From: Meiothermus ruber DSM 1279
GTDB taxonomy: Bacteria > Deinococcota > Deinococci > Deinococcales > Thermaceae
DNA length: 64,000 bases
Direction of reading: 5' to 3'
NCBI RefSeq assembly: GCF_000024425.1
Contig: NC_013946.1
Coordinates: 1,302,001-1,366,000, forward strand
The notes below the pieces were generated by a model, which did not search any database, was not told where the DNA came from, and was given only the letters and a program-made list of their open reading frames with translations. This document shows positions 10,202 through 54,969 of the stretch, one piece after another (the first letter of the stretch is position 1; each line of letters starts with the position of its first letter). A program made the translations under genes and the position numbers.

Positions 10202-10638
10202 CGGGCTCTTGTAAGGGCTTCGGGAAGGATGCCAGGAGCGATGAAATGGGGGTTTTCATGAGCATCCATCAGGCGTTATCTAAACGGGATCAGCCGGGAG
10301 CTTGTCCTCTCGGCTTTCTCTTGTACCCGGCTCCAGCCACTGTCCGCTACCGCACCGCCCCATGGTACTAGGAGACGCGGTTGGGTTGGACAAGACCCCG
10401 CGCACCAGGCCAACCCGGGTGCGGTGCCGCCCAGCCCGGCAAGGCCTCACGGGCCCGCACCTTCTGTCTGCACGTCCCCAGCATCGGATTACCTTCCGCC
10501 ACCCAAAGCTCCAGCATTCTGCCCAGGACACGGGCCAGGTGGGTCGTATCCAGTCTTTCCAGCATTCAACAAATAGCCACCACCCACAGCCCCAGTAAAG
10601 CAGGCAGGGGATGCGCCCGGCCCTGTCTGCGGCCACGG
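10202..10638. other. Non-coding stretch, possibly with a decayed gene fragment
   Basis: About 440 bp between the terminator and the VWA gene. Several frames are open in it but none has a ribosome binding site. The only protein-like one is on the minus strand (10368-10565, 65 residues, starting MLERLDTTHLARVLGRMLEL), with a preceding in-frame segment rich in Leu and Trp. It could be the remnant of a transposase or another lost gene; I cannot identify the family, and no terminal repeats were seen. Confidence 0.35.
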
Positions 10639-10670
10639 TTGCTTTTTCATACCACCCGATACTCGATAAT
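10639..10670 (+). promoter_or_regulatory. Leaderless-type promoter of the VWA gene
   Basis: TTGCTT (10639-10644) and GATAAT (10665-10670) lie just before the ATG at 10677. The 20-nt spacer is long, but the -10 hexamer 6 nt before the start codon fits the leaderless arrangement common in this phylum and argues for the 10677 start over the upstream ATG at 10611. Confidence 0.45.
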
Positions 10671-10676
10671 ACGGTC

Positions 10677-12845
10677 ATGCTGGCAGGGCTTCGGGCCGCC
10701 GTTATCGGTTTGCTGCTCCTGGCCTTCTGGGGGCCCAGCCTGCCGTTGCAGCCGCTGCAAACCGTGGTTCTGCTGGATCAGAGCCCCTCGGCCCGGGAGG
10801 CGGTCTGGCAGGTTGCGCCCCGGCTTCAGCTACCTGGTGCCCAGTATGTGGCTTTTGCCAGTGGGGCCATCCAGGTGGCGGGCCCGACAGCCCGGCGTCT
10901 TGACCTGGGCGAGGGCACCCGTCTGGGGGAAGCCCTGGCGAAAGCGCGGGAGCTGAAAGCGGATCGGATAGTGCTGGTGTCGGATGGGTTGTTTCAGGAT
11001 AGGGCCGAGCCCATTGGCATACCCATCTACAGCCTTTACCAGCCGCCCAGCCCCAACCTTTCGGTTGTTCTAACCGGGCCGGCGCTTCCAGCCAAGGGCG
11101 AGACTGTCGAGGTGCGGGCCGTGCTGGAGTCGACCACGGCGGTGCGGGCTCAGCTTACCTTCAACGGGCCGGCTGGGGTTGTGGAGCGGGCGGTGCAGCT
11201 CGAGCCCGGTCGCAGCAGTGTGGGGTATCGTTTCCGGCTGGATGGGCCCAGCACGGTCACGGTGCGGGTGGAGAGCCCCCTGGGCCTCGAGCAGGGCCGC
11301 CTCGAGCTGAGCCCCACGGACTCGACGCGGGTCTGGGTGCTGGGGGATGCGGCCCTGGCCCGCTATTTGCGAGCCCAGGGCTTTAGCGTGGAGGAGCGAA
11401 AGGAGATCACCCTCCCCATCCGGGCCGAGGTGGTGGCCTTGGGGGTGGGGGCGCGGGATCTGTCGGCTGCTGAGCTGGATGCCTTGCAGAGCTTTTTGAA
11501 CCAGGGTGGGAGCCTGCTCTGGACTGCGACCCCCCAGGGCTTGTTTTTTGGCGGTTGGGAGCGCACCAGTCTGGCCGATAGCCTGCCGGTGGAGCCGGTG
11601 GAGGAGCCGGGTGGGGTGGGGATTGTGCTGGTGTTGGATGTCTCGGGCAGCATGCTCGAGGACGACAAGCTGGGGCTGGCGGTGACGGGTTCGCTCGAGC
11701 TGATCCGCTCGGCCCGCCCCCAGGACTACATCGGGGTGGTGGTCTTCTCCGACCGCCCGCGCTGGCTGTTCCGCCCCCGGCCCATGACCGAGCAGGGCCG
11801 CAAGGAGGCCGAGAGCCTCCTGCTCTCCACCCAGGCTGGGGGCGGCACCATGATCCGCCGGGCCTACCTGGAGGCCCTGGAAGCACTGGAGCAGGTTCCC
11901 ACCGAGTCCAAACAGGTGATAGCCCTCACCGATGGGCTGGCCGCCGATGTAACCCCCGACCTGTTTGATGCCGCCCGCGAGGCCAGCCCCAGGATCAAAA
12001 CCAACACCGTGGCCATCGGGGCTGATGCCGACGGCCGGTTTTTGCGCGAGCTGGCCCAGGCCGGGGATGGCACCTACTGGGATGTGCCCCGCCCAGAGGA
12101 TCTACCCCGATTCTTCTTGGAAGAAGCCCAGCGGGTTTTCCGGCGCGAGGCCCTGGAGGGCAGCTTCCCGGTGGCCGTGCGACCCCACCCCATCACCCGC
12201 GCCGCCAACCCCCCGCCCCTCTCGGTGATCCTCCCGGCTAAAACCAAGCCCTGGGCCCAGACCCTGCTCAGCTCCGGCGAGGGTACCGTGCTGGCCGTGG
12301 GGGAGAGCGGGCGGGGCCGGGTGGCCGCCCTCACCACCGACCTCTCGCGCTCCTGGCAAGGCTGGCAGGGCGCCCCGGCGCTGCTGGGTGAACTCCTGCG
12401 CTGGCTTTCGCAGACCCCCGCGCGGCCCCGGGTGCAGGCTGTGCGCGAGCTGGACGGGGTGCGCGTGACCCTGGAGGGCCAGTTCGAACGGCCCCGCCTG
12501 CGCGCGGCAGGCCAGGAGCAGCCCATGGCCCCGGTCGGGCCGCTGCGCTTTGAAACCTGGCTGCCCCGAGAAGCCGTGGGGGAGGCTGTGGTATTCGAAA
12601 ACGAGCAGCCACGCTTGCGCTTGCAGCTACCCAGTCTGCCCGAATGGCGCCTGGAGGATGGGCGGGAAAACCTGCGCCGCCTCTCGGAGCTGAGCGGGGG
12701 CCGGCTTTTGGCCGATGCCACTGAGCTGCGAGAACTTGCAGGCCGCAAGGCTTACAACCTGCAATGGCCCCTCATCGCGCTGGCGGTGGTGCTTTTTTTG
12801 CTGGAGCGTTACCTCGAGCGAAGACGAGGCCATCGCGGCTTATGA
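10677..12845 (+). CDS. Large VWA-domain membrane protein
   Basis: About 722 residues. A membrane segment near the start (AVIGLLLLAFWG) is followed by a beta-rich extracytoplasmic region and a strand-rich segment resembling a glutamine-amidotransferase-like fold (about residues 225-310). A von Willebrand A domain follows, with an intact metal site: VLDVSGSM, the GTMIR threonine and ALTDGLA. The tail ends in a membrane helix (WPLIALAVVLFLLERYLERR). Proteins of this architecture often accompany MoxR ATPases; here the MoxR/VWA operon is 35 kb away. The last 11 codons run into the first copy of a 74-bp tandem repeat, which supplies the stop codon. Without the repeats the frame would continue about 20 codons into unique DNA, so the C-terminus has been altered. 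Confidence 0.8.
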   Translation: MLAGLRAAVIGLLLLAFWGPSLPLQPLQTVVLLDQSPSAREAVWQVAPRLQLPGAQYVAFASGAIQVAGPTARRLDLGEGTRLGEALAKARELKADRIVLVSDGLFQDRAEPIGIPIYSLYQPPSPNLSVVLTGPALPAKGETVEVRAVLESTTAVRAQLTFNGPAGVVERAVQLEPGRSSVGYRFRLDGPSTVTVRVESPLGLEQGRLELSPTDSTRVWVLGDAALARYLRAQGFSVEERKEITLPIRAEVVALGVGARDLSAAELDALQSFLNQGGSLLWTATPQGLFFGGWERTSLADSLPVEPVEEPGGVGIVLVLDVSGSMLEDDKLGLAVTGSLELIRSARPQDYIGVVVFSDRPRWLFRPRPMTEQGRKEAESLLLSTQAGGGTMIRRAYLEALEALEQVPTESKQVIALTDGLAADVTPDLFDAAREASPRIKTNTVAIGADADGRFLRELAQAGDGTYWDVPRPEDLPRFFLEEAQRVFRREALEGSFPVAVRPHPITRAANPPPLSVILPAKTKPWAQTLLSSGEGTVLAVGESGRGRVAALTTDLSRSWQGWQGAPALLGELLRWLSQTPARPRVQAVRELDGVRVTLEGQFERPRLRAAGQEQPMAPVGPLRFETWLPREAVGEAVVFENEQPRLRLQLPSLPEWRLEDGRENLRRLSELSGGRLLADATELRELAGRKAYNLQWPLIALAVVLFLLERYLERRRGHRGL

Positions 12846-13047
12846 GGAATTGCTCGCCAGTTTGTTTTACTGCTCGCGCCTGCGGCCTCGAGCGAAGACG
12901 AGGCCATCGCGGCTTATGAGGAATTGCTCGCCAGTTTGTTTTACTGCTCGCGCCTGCGGCCTCGAGCGAAGACGAGGCCATCGCGGCTTATGAGGAATTG
13001 CTCGCCAGTTTGTTTTACTGCTCGCGCCTGCGGCCTCGAGCGAAGAC
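12812..13047. repeat. Tandem repeat, 74-bp unit, about 3.2 copies
   Basis: Identical 74-bp units start at 12812, 12886 and 12960, and a 15-bp partial copy (CCTCGAGCGAAGACG) starts at 13034. I see no mismatch among the copies, so the expansion is recent or kept uniform. Each unit begins with CCTCGAGCGAAGACG, which also flanks the far junction, so slipped replication or unequal recombination at this 15-bp sequence is a simple origin. Three units are 222 bp, a multiple of three, yet each carries TGA in the VWA frame. It overlaps the 3' end of the VWA gene. Confidence 0.97.
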
Positions 13048-13117
13048 GGGCTTATCTCCAAAGAAACCCTGTACCTTGGCCTGCCCCACGCTCGGCGATA
13101 ATTTGGTCAAATCCGGC

Positions 13118-13145
13118 TTGACTTCTACCGCACCGGCGCTAGTGT
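13118..13145 (+). promoter_or_regulatory. Promoter of the subtilisin-like gene
   Basis: TTGACT (13118-13123) and TAGTGT (13140-13145) are separated by 16 nt, with the -10 only 7 nt before the ATG at 13153. GGGAGAG between them could also serve as a short ribosome binding site. Confidence 0.5.
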
Positions 13146-13152
13146 GGGAGAG

Positions 13153-15090
13153 ATGCGGCGGTACCCGGTTTTGATTCTGCTGTCTGCGCTACTGGTGGGT
13201 TGTGGTTCCAATGGGGCTTTGGTGTCGGCCATCCCCAAAGAGGTAGTGCTGGAGGGGCTCGAGGGTAGCCTGGTGCTACCGGTGGGCTCCAACGTGGCCT
13301 GGAAGATCGAGAGCTACAGCACCTGGCTGAGCGTGACGCCGCAAGCCGGTATCGGCCCAAAAGTTGTGCAAATCCGGGCCGAGTTTGCCGACGGAATTCA
13401 AGAACAGCCCGAATACACCGGCAGCCTCCGCCTTACGGGTGATCTGGAAGCTGAGGTGCTGGTTCGGCTGCCGTTGGTGAAGGTTACGGGTGGGGTGGTG
13501 GACTCGAGCCTGACCGCTGCCTCGGTGAGCGGGGCGCCCCTGGCCTCCCAGTCGTTGCCTAGCCAGAGCGCCCCGGCTCCCAGCGCTGCTAGCAATGAAA
13601 TTCTGGTCAAGTACCGTACCGATCTGCGCGCCGCTGTCCTGCCACAGGGGAGCCGGGTTCTATCCCACGACCGCATCAGCCGTATCACCAAGCTGCGGGC
13701 TGCCAATCCAGAAGCCTTGCTGCAACGCCTGCGCCTCGACCCCAGCGTGGAGTGGGCCGAAATCAACGGAACCGTGCGCGCCCAGGGTGAGCCCACCGAC
13801 CAGTACTACCCACAGCAGTGGCACCTGCGCAGCACCGGGGCGCGCTTTACTTATCTACAAAACTACACGACCCCCATCACGGTGGCGGTGGTGGATTCCG
13901 GTGTGCGTTACGATCACCCTGACCTGGCCGGGCGGCTGTGGCGGCCGGGCGAGGGGGCTTACGATTTTGTGGGCGATGCTGCGCCACCTGACAACCCCGC
14001 CGACCCCTACGATCCTTGCGGTGCGCCTGCCCCGGACACCTTGGGTGACGATGACCCCACCGATCCCTGTGACCTTAATGGAACCACCGGTGGAAGCCAT
14101 GGCACCCATGTGACCGGCCTCATTGTGGCAAACAGCGGGTCGTTTGCGCCGCCCTGCGCCAATTGCTCGGCCTCGGGGGTGGTGGGAATGGCCTACAATG
14201 CCCCCGTCAAGGTGCTGCCGTTGCGGGTACTGGATTCGGGCGGTAGCGGTACGTTTGAGAACGTGGCCCTGGCGGTGCGCTATGCGGCGGGCATCCCGGT
14301 GGAGCTGGGCGGCCAGCTTGTACAGAACCCGCACCCAGCCCAGGTGATTAACCTTTCGCTGGGCTCAATCAACTACTCCAACGCCATGTGCGAGGCGGTG
14401 GCGGATGTGGTGGCTCGAGGGGTGCTGGTGGTGGCAGCGGCGGGCAATTTCCAGAACCGCAATCCGGGTGCGCTGGTCTACCCAGCGGCCTGCCCTGGGG
14501 CCATCTCGGTCGCGGCCACCGATATGTACAACCAGGTGGCGTACTACAGCCAGCAGAATGGCGAGGTAGACATTGCCGCGCCGGGCGGCAACACAACCCA
14601 GCCAGGGGGCGGTGTGCTCTCTACCACCTGGAATTATCAAACCAACCTGCCCAACTATACCTTTTACATGGGCACTTCCCAGGCTGCTCCCCAGGTGGCG
14701 GCAGCGCTGGCCATGGTGCTGTCCAGCGGACGCGCTACCAACGCGGAAGAAGCCTGGAACCTGATCCGCTCGAGCGCCACCGATCTGGGTGCGCCGGGCC
14801 GGGACAATGCCTACGGGTATGGCCTGCTCAACCTGCCGGGGGCTTTTGGCTGGACGCTGCCCCGGGGCGAGCTTCTGGTAAGCCTGAGCGGCCCCATTGC
14901 CCGGCGGGTGCCGGTGGTCAACGGGCGCTTCGAGACCTTTTTGCTGCCGGGGCGCTACACCCTGGTAGCCTGCCGCGACGATTCGGGCAACAGCTTGTGC
15001 GATAGCGGCGAGCCGCAAGTGGAGCGTCAGGTGCAGGTGAATGGGGGGAACACCCTCGACCTGGGAATCATCCAGATAGGGTCGCAGTAA
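13153..15090 (+). CDS. Subtilisin-like (S8) serine protease lipoprotein
   Basis: 645 residues. A lipobox LLVGC gives an acylated Cys17, so the protease is probably anchored to a membrane facing outward. Residues about 25-110 look like an immunoglobulin-like BACON-type domain (strands ending in STWLSVTP). Next comes a propeptide-like region with EILVKYR and the typical WAEINGTVRAQG, then the catalytic domain: Asp248 in VAVVDSGVRYDHPD, His316 in GSHGTHVTG, oxyanion Asn432 in AAAGNFQN, and Ser509 in MGTSQAAPQVA. An Asp/Pro/Cys-rich insertion (about residues 274-312) between Asp and His may bind calcium. The C-terminal 80 residues form a small beta domain with four-residue turns (DDSGNSLCDSGEPQ) of the carboxypeptidase-regulatory type. 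All catalytic residues are present. Confidence 0.92.
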   Translation: MRRYPVLILLSALLVGCGSNGALVSAIPKEVVLEGLEGSLVLPVGSNVAWKIESYSTWLSVTPQAGIGPKVVQIRAEFADGIQEQPEYTGSLRLTGDLEAEVLVRLPLVKVTGGVVDSSLTAASVSGAPLASQSLPSQSAPAPSAASNEILVKYRTDLRAAVLPQGSRVLSHDRISRITKLRAANPEALLQRLRLDPSVEWAEINGTVRAQGEPTDQYYPQQWHLRSTGARFTYLQNYTTPITVAVVDSGVRYDHPDLAGRLWRPGEGAYDFVGDAAPPDNPADPYDPCGAPAPDTLGDDDPTDPCDLNGTTGGSHGTHVTGLIVANSGSFAPPCANCSASGVVGMAYNAPVKVLPLRVLDSGGSGTFENVALAVRYAAGIPVELGGQLVQNPHPAQVINLSLGSINYSNAMCEAVADVVARGVLVVAAAGNFQNRNPGALVYPAACPGAISVAATDMYNQVAYYSQQNGEVDIAAPGGNTTQPGGGVLSTTWNYQTNLPNYTFYMGTSQAAPQVAAALAMVLSSGRATNAEEAWNLIRSSATDLGAPGRDNAYGYGLLNLPGAFGWTLPRGELLVSLSGPIARRVPVVNGRFETFLLPGRYTLVACRDDSGNSLCDSGEPQVERQVQVNGGNTLDLGIIQIGSQ

Positions 15091-38804: not shown

Positions 38805-39008
38805 AGACCCGCTCTCTAGTTTAGCCGTTATACGCAATCTGGCAAGATAAATCGCAGCAATACAGCAATGGATACTTTTGTTGAGCCCTGAGACGATTTG
38901 TTATCCCAGGTGATACTCATGCGTTACTTATTTATGAGAACAAGCAAAGTACTACTATTGTGTAGCCTCATAAACATACTTTGTGTTGCGGGTAGTGGAG
39001 GAAAATTT

Positions 39009-39131
39009 ATGCATATTAGCCGGGTAGTAGAGGAGAAATTTCACATGAAAAGCCGACAAAACCTGAACGAGCCGGTTCTACCCCTACTTTTTGATCAAAC
39101 CGACACACCTGAACAGGTAGCGTTACTGTAA
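39009..39131 (+). CDS. Possible 40-residue peptide upstream of the glycosyltransferase
   Basis: The ATG at 39009 follows GGAGGAAAATTT, a strong ribosome binding site with good spacing, and a second one (GAGGAG) precedes an internal ATG at 39045. The product (MHISRVVEEKF... ending DTPEQVALL) has no membrane segment or known motif. The frame is open upstream to 38898, but that part lacks a ribosome site. It could be a small regulatory peptide or the remnant of a gene. Confidence 0.4.
   Translation: MHISRVVEEKFHMKSRQNLNEPVLPLLFDQTDTPEQVALL

Positions 39132-53764: not shown

Positions 53765-54969
<1,205 letters not shown>

Follow-up and report, generated by a model that had tools for sequence, protein, structure and literature searches.

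The array of three identical 74-bp copies at the 3' end of a VWA-domain protein gene of Meiothermus ruber DSM 1279 probably arose by local amplification of one copy of a short (72-75 bp), non-autonomous and genus-specific mobile element. It lies in a window of 64,000 nucleotides (G000:C1:1302001-1366000), the whole stretch of DNA that was analysed. We call the element non-autonomous since a transposase gene would not fit into 72-75 bp, and we infer its mobility from the lineage-specific presence of its units. By analogy, the best reading of the VWA array is an element that works like the Rickettsia palindromic elements (RPE) and that was amplified here by tandem duplication.

TRF found one perfect array in the window, at 12812-13048, with a period of 74, 3.2 copies, 100% matches, 0 indels and a score of 474. 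An earlier note on this DNA had described three identical copies of 74 bp and a further 15 bp, beginning in the final codons of a VWA gene; the repeat analysis confirmed this layout and moved the end of the array from 13047 to 13048, one base further, and the host is indeed a VWA gene by its Pfam match (PF13519, 4.2e-15). Unit 1 was matched over 12813-12892 at 58.6 bits by R1, an earlier profile model of which this unit is itself a part. The array is not a product of chance, since an 18-base motif taken from it occurs four times in the window when up to 3 mismatches are allowed and 0.04 times on average in shuffled sequences, and since related units are present elsewhere in the M. ruber genome and in the genus. 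The earlier note had proposed a genome search for single copies of the 74-mer: its matches in this genome were confined to the three array positions, but related units were found at two other M. ruber loci. A search of positions 12600-13300 against the curated RNA families of Rfam gave no match up to E = 1, and the array had no match among plasmid and phage records. Elsewhere in the window we noted a weak R1 match at 54199-54273 (10.1 bits, E 0.06; probably chance) and a 32-bp repeat of 2.1 copies and 77% matches at 38989-39055 (TRF). The hexamer CTCGAG was observed 143 times in the window for 112.5 expected by a Markov estimate, and it is not one of the window's six most over-represented six-base palindromes. 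The features at the array are collected in Table 1.

Table 1. Features of the VWA locus and its array, in window positions.
Feature	Position	Strand	Remarks
VWA-domain protein gene	10611..12845	+	744 aa; C-terminal hydrophobic stretch then LERYLERRR; stop codon within unit 1
Unit 1, 74 bp, beginning with CTCGAG and ending just ahead of the next one	12813..12886	+	holds the VWA stop, 12843-12845
Unit-unit junction core GCTCGCGCCTGCGGCCTCGAGCGAAGACGAGGCC	12872..12905	+	allows two hairpins to be drawn that overlap and exclude each other; a second such core at 12946-12979
Unit 2, identical to unit 1	12887..12960	+	R1 47.3 bits
Unit 3, identical to unit 1	12961..13034	+	R1 47.3 bits
Closing CTCGAG (13035-13040) with the LERRR codons, taken as native to the VWA gene	13035..13048	+	compare the empty site of G011 and the right flank of G016
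Probable former 3' end of the VWA frame, ending in WSNPA and a stop	13049..13121	+	
Downstream gene, S8 (subtilase) peptidase	13144..15090	+	648 aa

The VWA frame enters unit 1 and reads LERYLERRRGHRGL up to a TGA stop. The three units add 222 bp, a multiple of three, and the same frame past the array (inside an ORF at 12924-13121) reads ERRRAYLQRNPVPWPAPRSAIIWSNPA and a stop, with WSNPA as its last residues and the stop codon at 13119-13121. The continuation of about 20 codons that the earlier note predicted for the frame freed of the array is thus present as 23 residues after RRR. Five unit-free VWA orthologues (G014, G003, G006, G010, G004) end at a TGA inside CTTGAC as the frame past the array does, and for this reason that frame looks like the ancestral tail; the array, as had been proposed, rewrites the C-terminus by replacing what seems to be the ancestral sequence after LERRR. 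The 15 bp at 13034-13048, taken in the earlier note for a partial copy, find their simplest reading in the native LERRR codons (CTCGAGCGAAGACG), whose sequence is similar to the left end of the unit. These native codons (CTCGAGCGAAGAC) show the same likeness in the empty site of G011 and in G013; a target of CTCGAG alone would not account for this likeness, which may reflect chance, a wider target preference or a scar. The G013 site (G013:C5:39227-39282, L064) has no array, and about 35 bp after its CTCGAG resemble the start of the M. ruber unit (R1 E 0.004); this stretch is possibly the scar of a lost unit.

Units are present in four of the 18 VWA orthologues (G000 three, G008 two, G016 one, G015 one) and the other 14 have no complete unit. 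The earlier note expected the copy number to vary between strains; among species the number does differ at this site (3/2/1/1/0 over 18 genomes). The suggestion that copy number switches the protein tail did not hold: the stop is in unit 1, so that the tail is GHRGL whether there are one, two or three units, and only the presence or absence of a unit alters it. The membrane anchor and LERRR are untouched by the units, and only the tail after LERRR changes. Since the 18 orthologues have short tails that mostly share little with one another, we regard this exchange as probably near-neutral, with little effect expected. The earlier note also thought that copy number could alter the distance to the next promoter; each unit does place a further 74 bp ahead of the next gene, and a scan for sigma-70-like promoters over 12600-13400 found none.

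Used as a query, the array with its flanks hit 14 of 50 family genomes, in part only within VWA coding sequence and otherwise at related arrays, two of them in the M. ruber genome. Their common design is a unit of 72-75 bp between two CTCGAG sites, with a left end CTCGAGCG(n)AAGACGAGGC, a right end GCTCGCGCC(t)nnCGGCCTCGAG and an interior of about 38-40 bp; the ends are alike and the interiors diverge. An end pattern applied to chosen loci collected 61 distinct units (alignment A3) of 72 bp (20), 74 bp (20), 75 bp (15), 73 bp (5) and 66 bp (1), and as this pattern fixes much of the unit ends, it accounts in part for how conserved they look in A3. The profile of these 61 units, R2, gave 134 matches at E<=0.001, a few of them weak and the 61 by construction, in 17 of the 18 same-genus genomes; they merge into 85 loci, three of which (G006:C4:134184, G013:C2:112672, G016:C140:4066) were left out of the counts of hosts, boundaries, frames and neighbours. 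Among the 17 genomes support is weak for G006 (1 match, 22.8 bits, a partial unit), G012 (1 match, 22.1 bits) and G017 (3 matches, best 29.4 bits), and the eighteenth, G002, had no R2 match and one R1 match (5.7e-5). M. ruber itself has 11 R2 matches at three loci, the VWA array (3), 1.6929 Mb (5) and 1.997 Mb (3).

With stricter filters and E<=1e-4, R2 matched 15 of 111 class genomes, all Meiothermus, and none of the 93 others. With R1 at E<=0.01, four genomes of other genera were matched weakly (E 6.6e-4 to 0.009), and the one match that was read (L195, G048) lacked CTCGAG ends. A loose pattern scan, which proves no absence elsewhere, returned at least 117 stretches in genome contigs and 10 in viral contigs; 90 loci (the 80 genome-contig matches listed and the 10 viral ones) scored at most 19.5 bits with R2, mostly through the right end only, and were read as chance and not as members of the family. 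At four loci of several genomes (L057, L070, L071, L191) we saw a variant left end, CTCGAGCGAACC, which follows similar sequence in L070, L071 and L191. Locus L106 (G001:C15, 4994-5379) holds two 81-bp pieces among three ordinary units, with CTCGAG-like bounds and coding for ETLASGREA(E/Q)DTSPATDEPKRVRN, perhaps a second element. Among the open-licence papers listed by our searches we found no description of a CTCGAG-bounded Meiothermus element, which may be in print elsewhere.

In trpA and a PhnB-like gene, filled sites have the form CTCGAG-unit-CTCGAG and empty orthologous sites hold a single CTCGAG or a near match. The trpA gene of G016 carries 72 bp between two CTCGAG sites, and none of the 16 orthologous loci compared holds a unit: 15 have CTCGAG and one has CTGGAG. 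G013 had no trpA match. The PhnB-like gene of G015 likewise carries 72 bp, and all 11 orthologues compared are empty, nine with CTCGAG and the others with CTCCAG and CTCCTG; the protein was matched in 14 of 18 genomes, with the gaps visible in these matches too, of which the weak, distant G002 and G007 were left out of this comparison. At the VWA locus the 73 bp of G016 were set against eight orthologues, of which three counted as empty (G011 with 71/90 flank positions alike, G013 with 58 and G017 with 56) and only G011 cleanly so. The 75 bp in a DUF58 gene of G015 are a weaker case, as five of 17 orthologues reached the score and none had CTCGAG. Over the family CTCGAG is intact at both ends in 56 of 82 loci; the remaining 26 lack the left site only (19), the right site only (3) or both (4), an unevenness that is inflated by orthologues, since several of these loci are orthologous to each other, and one of them is cut by a contig end. 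The second CTCGAG of a filled site could be either a duplication or part of the element.

Units occur outside genes as well as within them, in frame, as insertions of 24-25 residues, and open frames span many units, including those of trpA, dnaG and priA. Pfam matched 16 of 20 unit-spanned proteins at 1e-5. The hosts include tryptophan synthase alpha chain, PriA domains, 3-hydroxyacyl-CoA dehydrogenase, an M20 peptidase, a Nudix protein, a menaquinone-biosynthesis protein, DnaG primase, DUF58, an ABC ATPase with a TOBE domain, 2-phosphosulpholactate phosphatase, a TetR regulator, pyroglutamyl peptidase and another ABC ATPase, which we would name as of the ABC-F type. In the Nudix protein the unit (L173, G016:C59:6940-7020) directly follows GGKLE, a position which we take to lie inside the Nudix box. 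Where a frame of 180 aa or longer spans the locus, the insert length is a multiple of three in 33 of 34 cases, a figure biased by the fact that a locus was called in a gene by its open frame; without such a frame it is so at 13 of 22 loci. The sole exception among the 34 is the G016 VWA locus, whose long frame differs from that of the VWA gene. TrpA of G016 (L178, G016:C104) has two units. The internal one adds exactly 24 residues to a protein that is otherwise 84-96% identical to 14 orthologues (14 of the 16 trpA orthologues were taken into the alignment). On an AF2 model of moderate confidence (mean pLDDT 65.6, with 54-62 and 199-209 also below 50) the insert is predicted as a loop, 146-167, with pLDDT below 50, between helix 134-143 and strand 170-174. 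The other unit, at the 3' end, supplies the stop and ends the protein at LER, much as unit 1 ends the M. ruber VWA protein.

The arrays have a single polarity. All 49 neighbouring pairs (up to 170 bp apart, on one strand) are head to tail by position, and no opposite-strand neighbours lie within 400 bp. When the interiors of 47 neighbouring pieces, cut at CTCGAG and including a few truncated or other pieces (56-81 bp), were compared, 15 were at least 90% alike and 23 less than 70%. We read these as two modes of growth, recent tandem duplication, as in the three identical units of the window, and older or independent insertions beside an existing unit. Unit number also differs at an orthologous protein of 803-850 aa (G008 3, G011 3, G016 2, G014 1, G003 1) and in an ABC ATPase (G014 4, G003 2). 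At 25 distinct junctions two overlapping hairpins with the common strand GGYCTCGAG can be drawn, and 99.5% and 97.1% of the cells are paired, percentages that are largely by construction as the collecting pattern fixes most of the paired letters. At a free position one pair per hairpin is changed on both sides in five sequences (GCACC/GGTC/GAGACC), which form one subfamily and thus represent one event. Neither the whole window unit (z = 0.12) nor the junction (z = -0.63) folds better than shuffled DNA, so recognition of the unit ends by hairpins is put forward here as a suggestion and not as a result. The predicted inverted match of the two ends is limited to CGAGC/GCTCG, 5 bp.

Rickettsia is described in PMC10969869 as the best-known case of small repeats lying in frame in conserved genes. 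RPE, according to PMC2229807 and PMC10969869, are small, repeated and non-autonomous; they lie between genes and also, in frame, within conserved protein genes, to which they add a peptide. The Meiothermus units resemble them in being short and non-autonomous at many unrelated places and in being inserted in frame into conserved genes whose orthologues are empty (trpA 16/16, PhnB-like 11/11). RPE measure 105-146 bp or about 150 bp and form long stem-loops in the accounts of these two papers, whereas the Meiothermus units are of 72-75 bp, have short end hairpins only, are bounded by CTCGAG and often stand in head-to-tail arrays, and no long stable stem-loop spans the window unit, as its z value shows. 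Bacterial MITEs (ERIC/RU-1, YPAL/RU-2, Correia/NEMIS) are also short and non-autonomous, and some are fused in frame to genes (PMC2229807). The presence of the target at both ends of a unit and once in most empty sites (15/16 for trpA, 9/11 for PhnB-like) is a further point in common; however, most bacterial MITEs as presented in PMC2229807 have terminal inverted repeats, TA ends and A+T-rich sequence, unlike the G+C-rich Meiothermus unit with its predicted 5-bp inverted match and its CTCGAG site. CGTC-tagged REP repeats are palindromic, some correspond to RPE families, and no dedicated transposase is known for them according to PMC3733652. The reverse strand of the left end of the Meiothermus unit holds CCTCGTC, but REPs are of 20-40 bp in that account and the unit, of 72-75 bp in 60 of 61 cases, has two different ends. 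The main text of PMC3733652 gives 0 occurrences of CGTC-tagged REPs for Meiothermus, Thermus and Deinococcus.

Several other explanations of the array were weighed. Its tandem identical copies, whose number differs between relatives at the species level, are what is seen in a VNTR or minisatellite, where a native stretch is duplicated by slippage with no mobile element involved. The confinement of the 74-mer to the array in M. ruber and the near-identical neighbours in other arrays (15 of 47) fit this as well, and it was very likely by such duplication that one copy became three. As a sole cause, local slippage is rejected by the dispersed single copies: these ends are shared by 85 loci of 17 genomes, at unrelated genes, and single units stand at precise places that are empty in relatives, as in trpA and the PhnB-like gene, so an ordinary minisatellite is quite improbable. 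Three perfect copies in one genome could also raise the thought of an assembly artefact in the type-strain genome, yet arrays of the same design and easily assembled single units in other genomes make this hardly credible. Just as little is to be said for CTCGAG restriction fragments ligated into cut host DNA without a dedicated element. CTCGAG does bound the units and is common in the window, but random joining would give both orientations and the 49 of 49 head-to-tail pairs disfavour it, and the unit ends are alike well inside CTCGAG.

It is unlikely that the units are REP/BIME-type elements moved by a RAYT (Y1, HUH) transposase, even though they are small, hairpins can be drawn at their ends next to a fixed site, Y1 matches occur in 11 of 18 genomes and the enzyme could act in trans or have since been lost. 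PF01797 had no match in the seven others, including G011 (99% complete, with 17 unit matches) and G016 (85% complete, with 24), so RAYT is not supported as the agent, and the units are about twice the length of REPs, lie in frame in genes and have CTCGAG on both sides. Retention of the units for a function, as an mRNA hairpin between genes or as a flexible peptide module in proteins, also seems to us rather unlikely. In its favour the two hairpins of a junction share one strand, a feature largely fixed by the collecting pattern, and in five genomes (G000, G001, G011, G013, G017) one protein has its units in a stretch rich in proline and alanine. Against it, folding is no better than in shuffles, units lie in both orientations in long open frames (24 of 42 in sense) and use several reading frames, and trpA has a unit in only one of 17 genomes.

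We therefore return to the mobile element and propose how it may work. A putative enzyme supplied in trans would recognise the unit ends (CTCGAGCGnAAGACGAGGC ... GCTCGCGCCtnnCGGCCTCGAG) and insert the unit at a CTCGAG of the host, leaving CTCGAG on both sides. Since every insertion would regenerate CTCGAG next to a unit end, further units could be added there in the same orientation, and runs of identical units such as that of the window would come from unequal crossing-over or slippage. Within genes mainly insertions that keep the frame would survive. At the VWA locus insertion at the LERRR codons, just after the membrane anchor, would have exchanged only a dispensable tail. The search for an autonomous partner covered PF01797 and found no mobilising enzyme. 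A further and tentative possibility, which we consider rather doubtful, is that Meiothermus has a still-active CTCGAG-specific insertion system, in which a putative trans recombinase and two hairpin ends place in-frame modules of 24-25 codons into housekeeping enzymes, with the target regenerated and units stacked head to tail. If true, this system would be a natural peptide-insertion mutagen in a thermophile.

The element gives a simple cause for the differences in unit number in Meiothermus proteins, and would make Meiothermus another lineage beside Rickettsia with small repeats in frame in conserved genes. With its defined target, lineage-specific insertions into enzymes and clean empty orthologues, it would make testable both how an element moves without a gene of its own and how far enzymes tolerate an inserted stretch of 24 residues.
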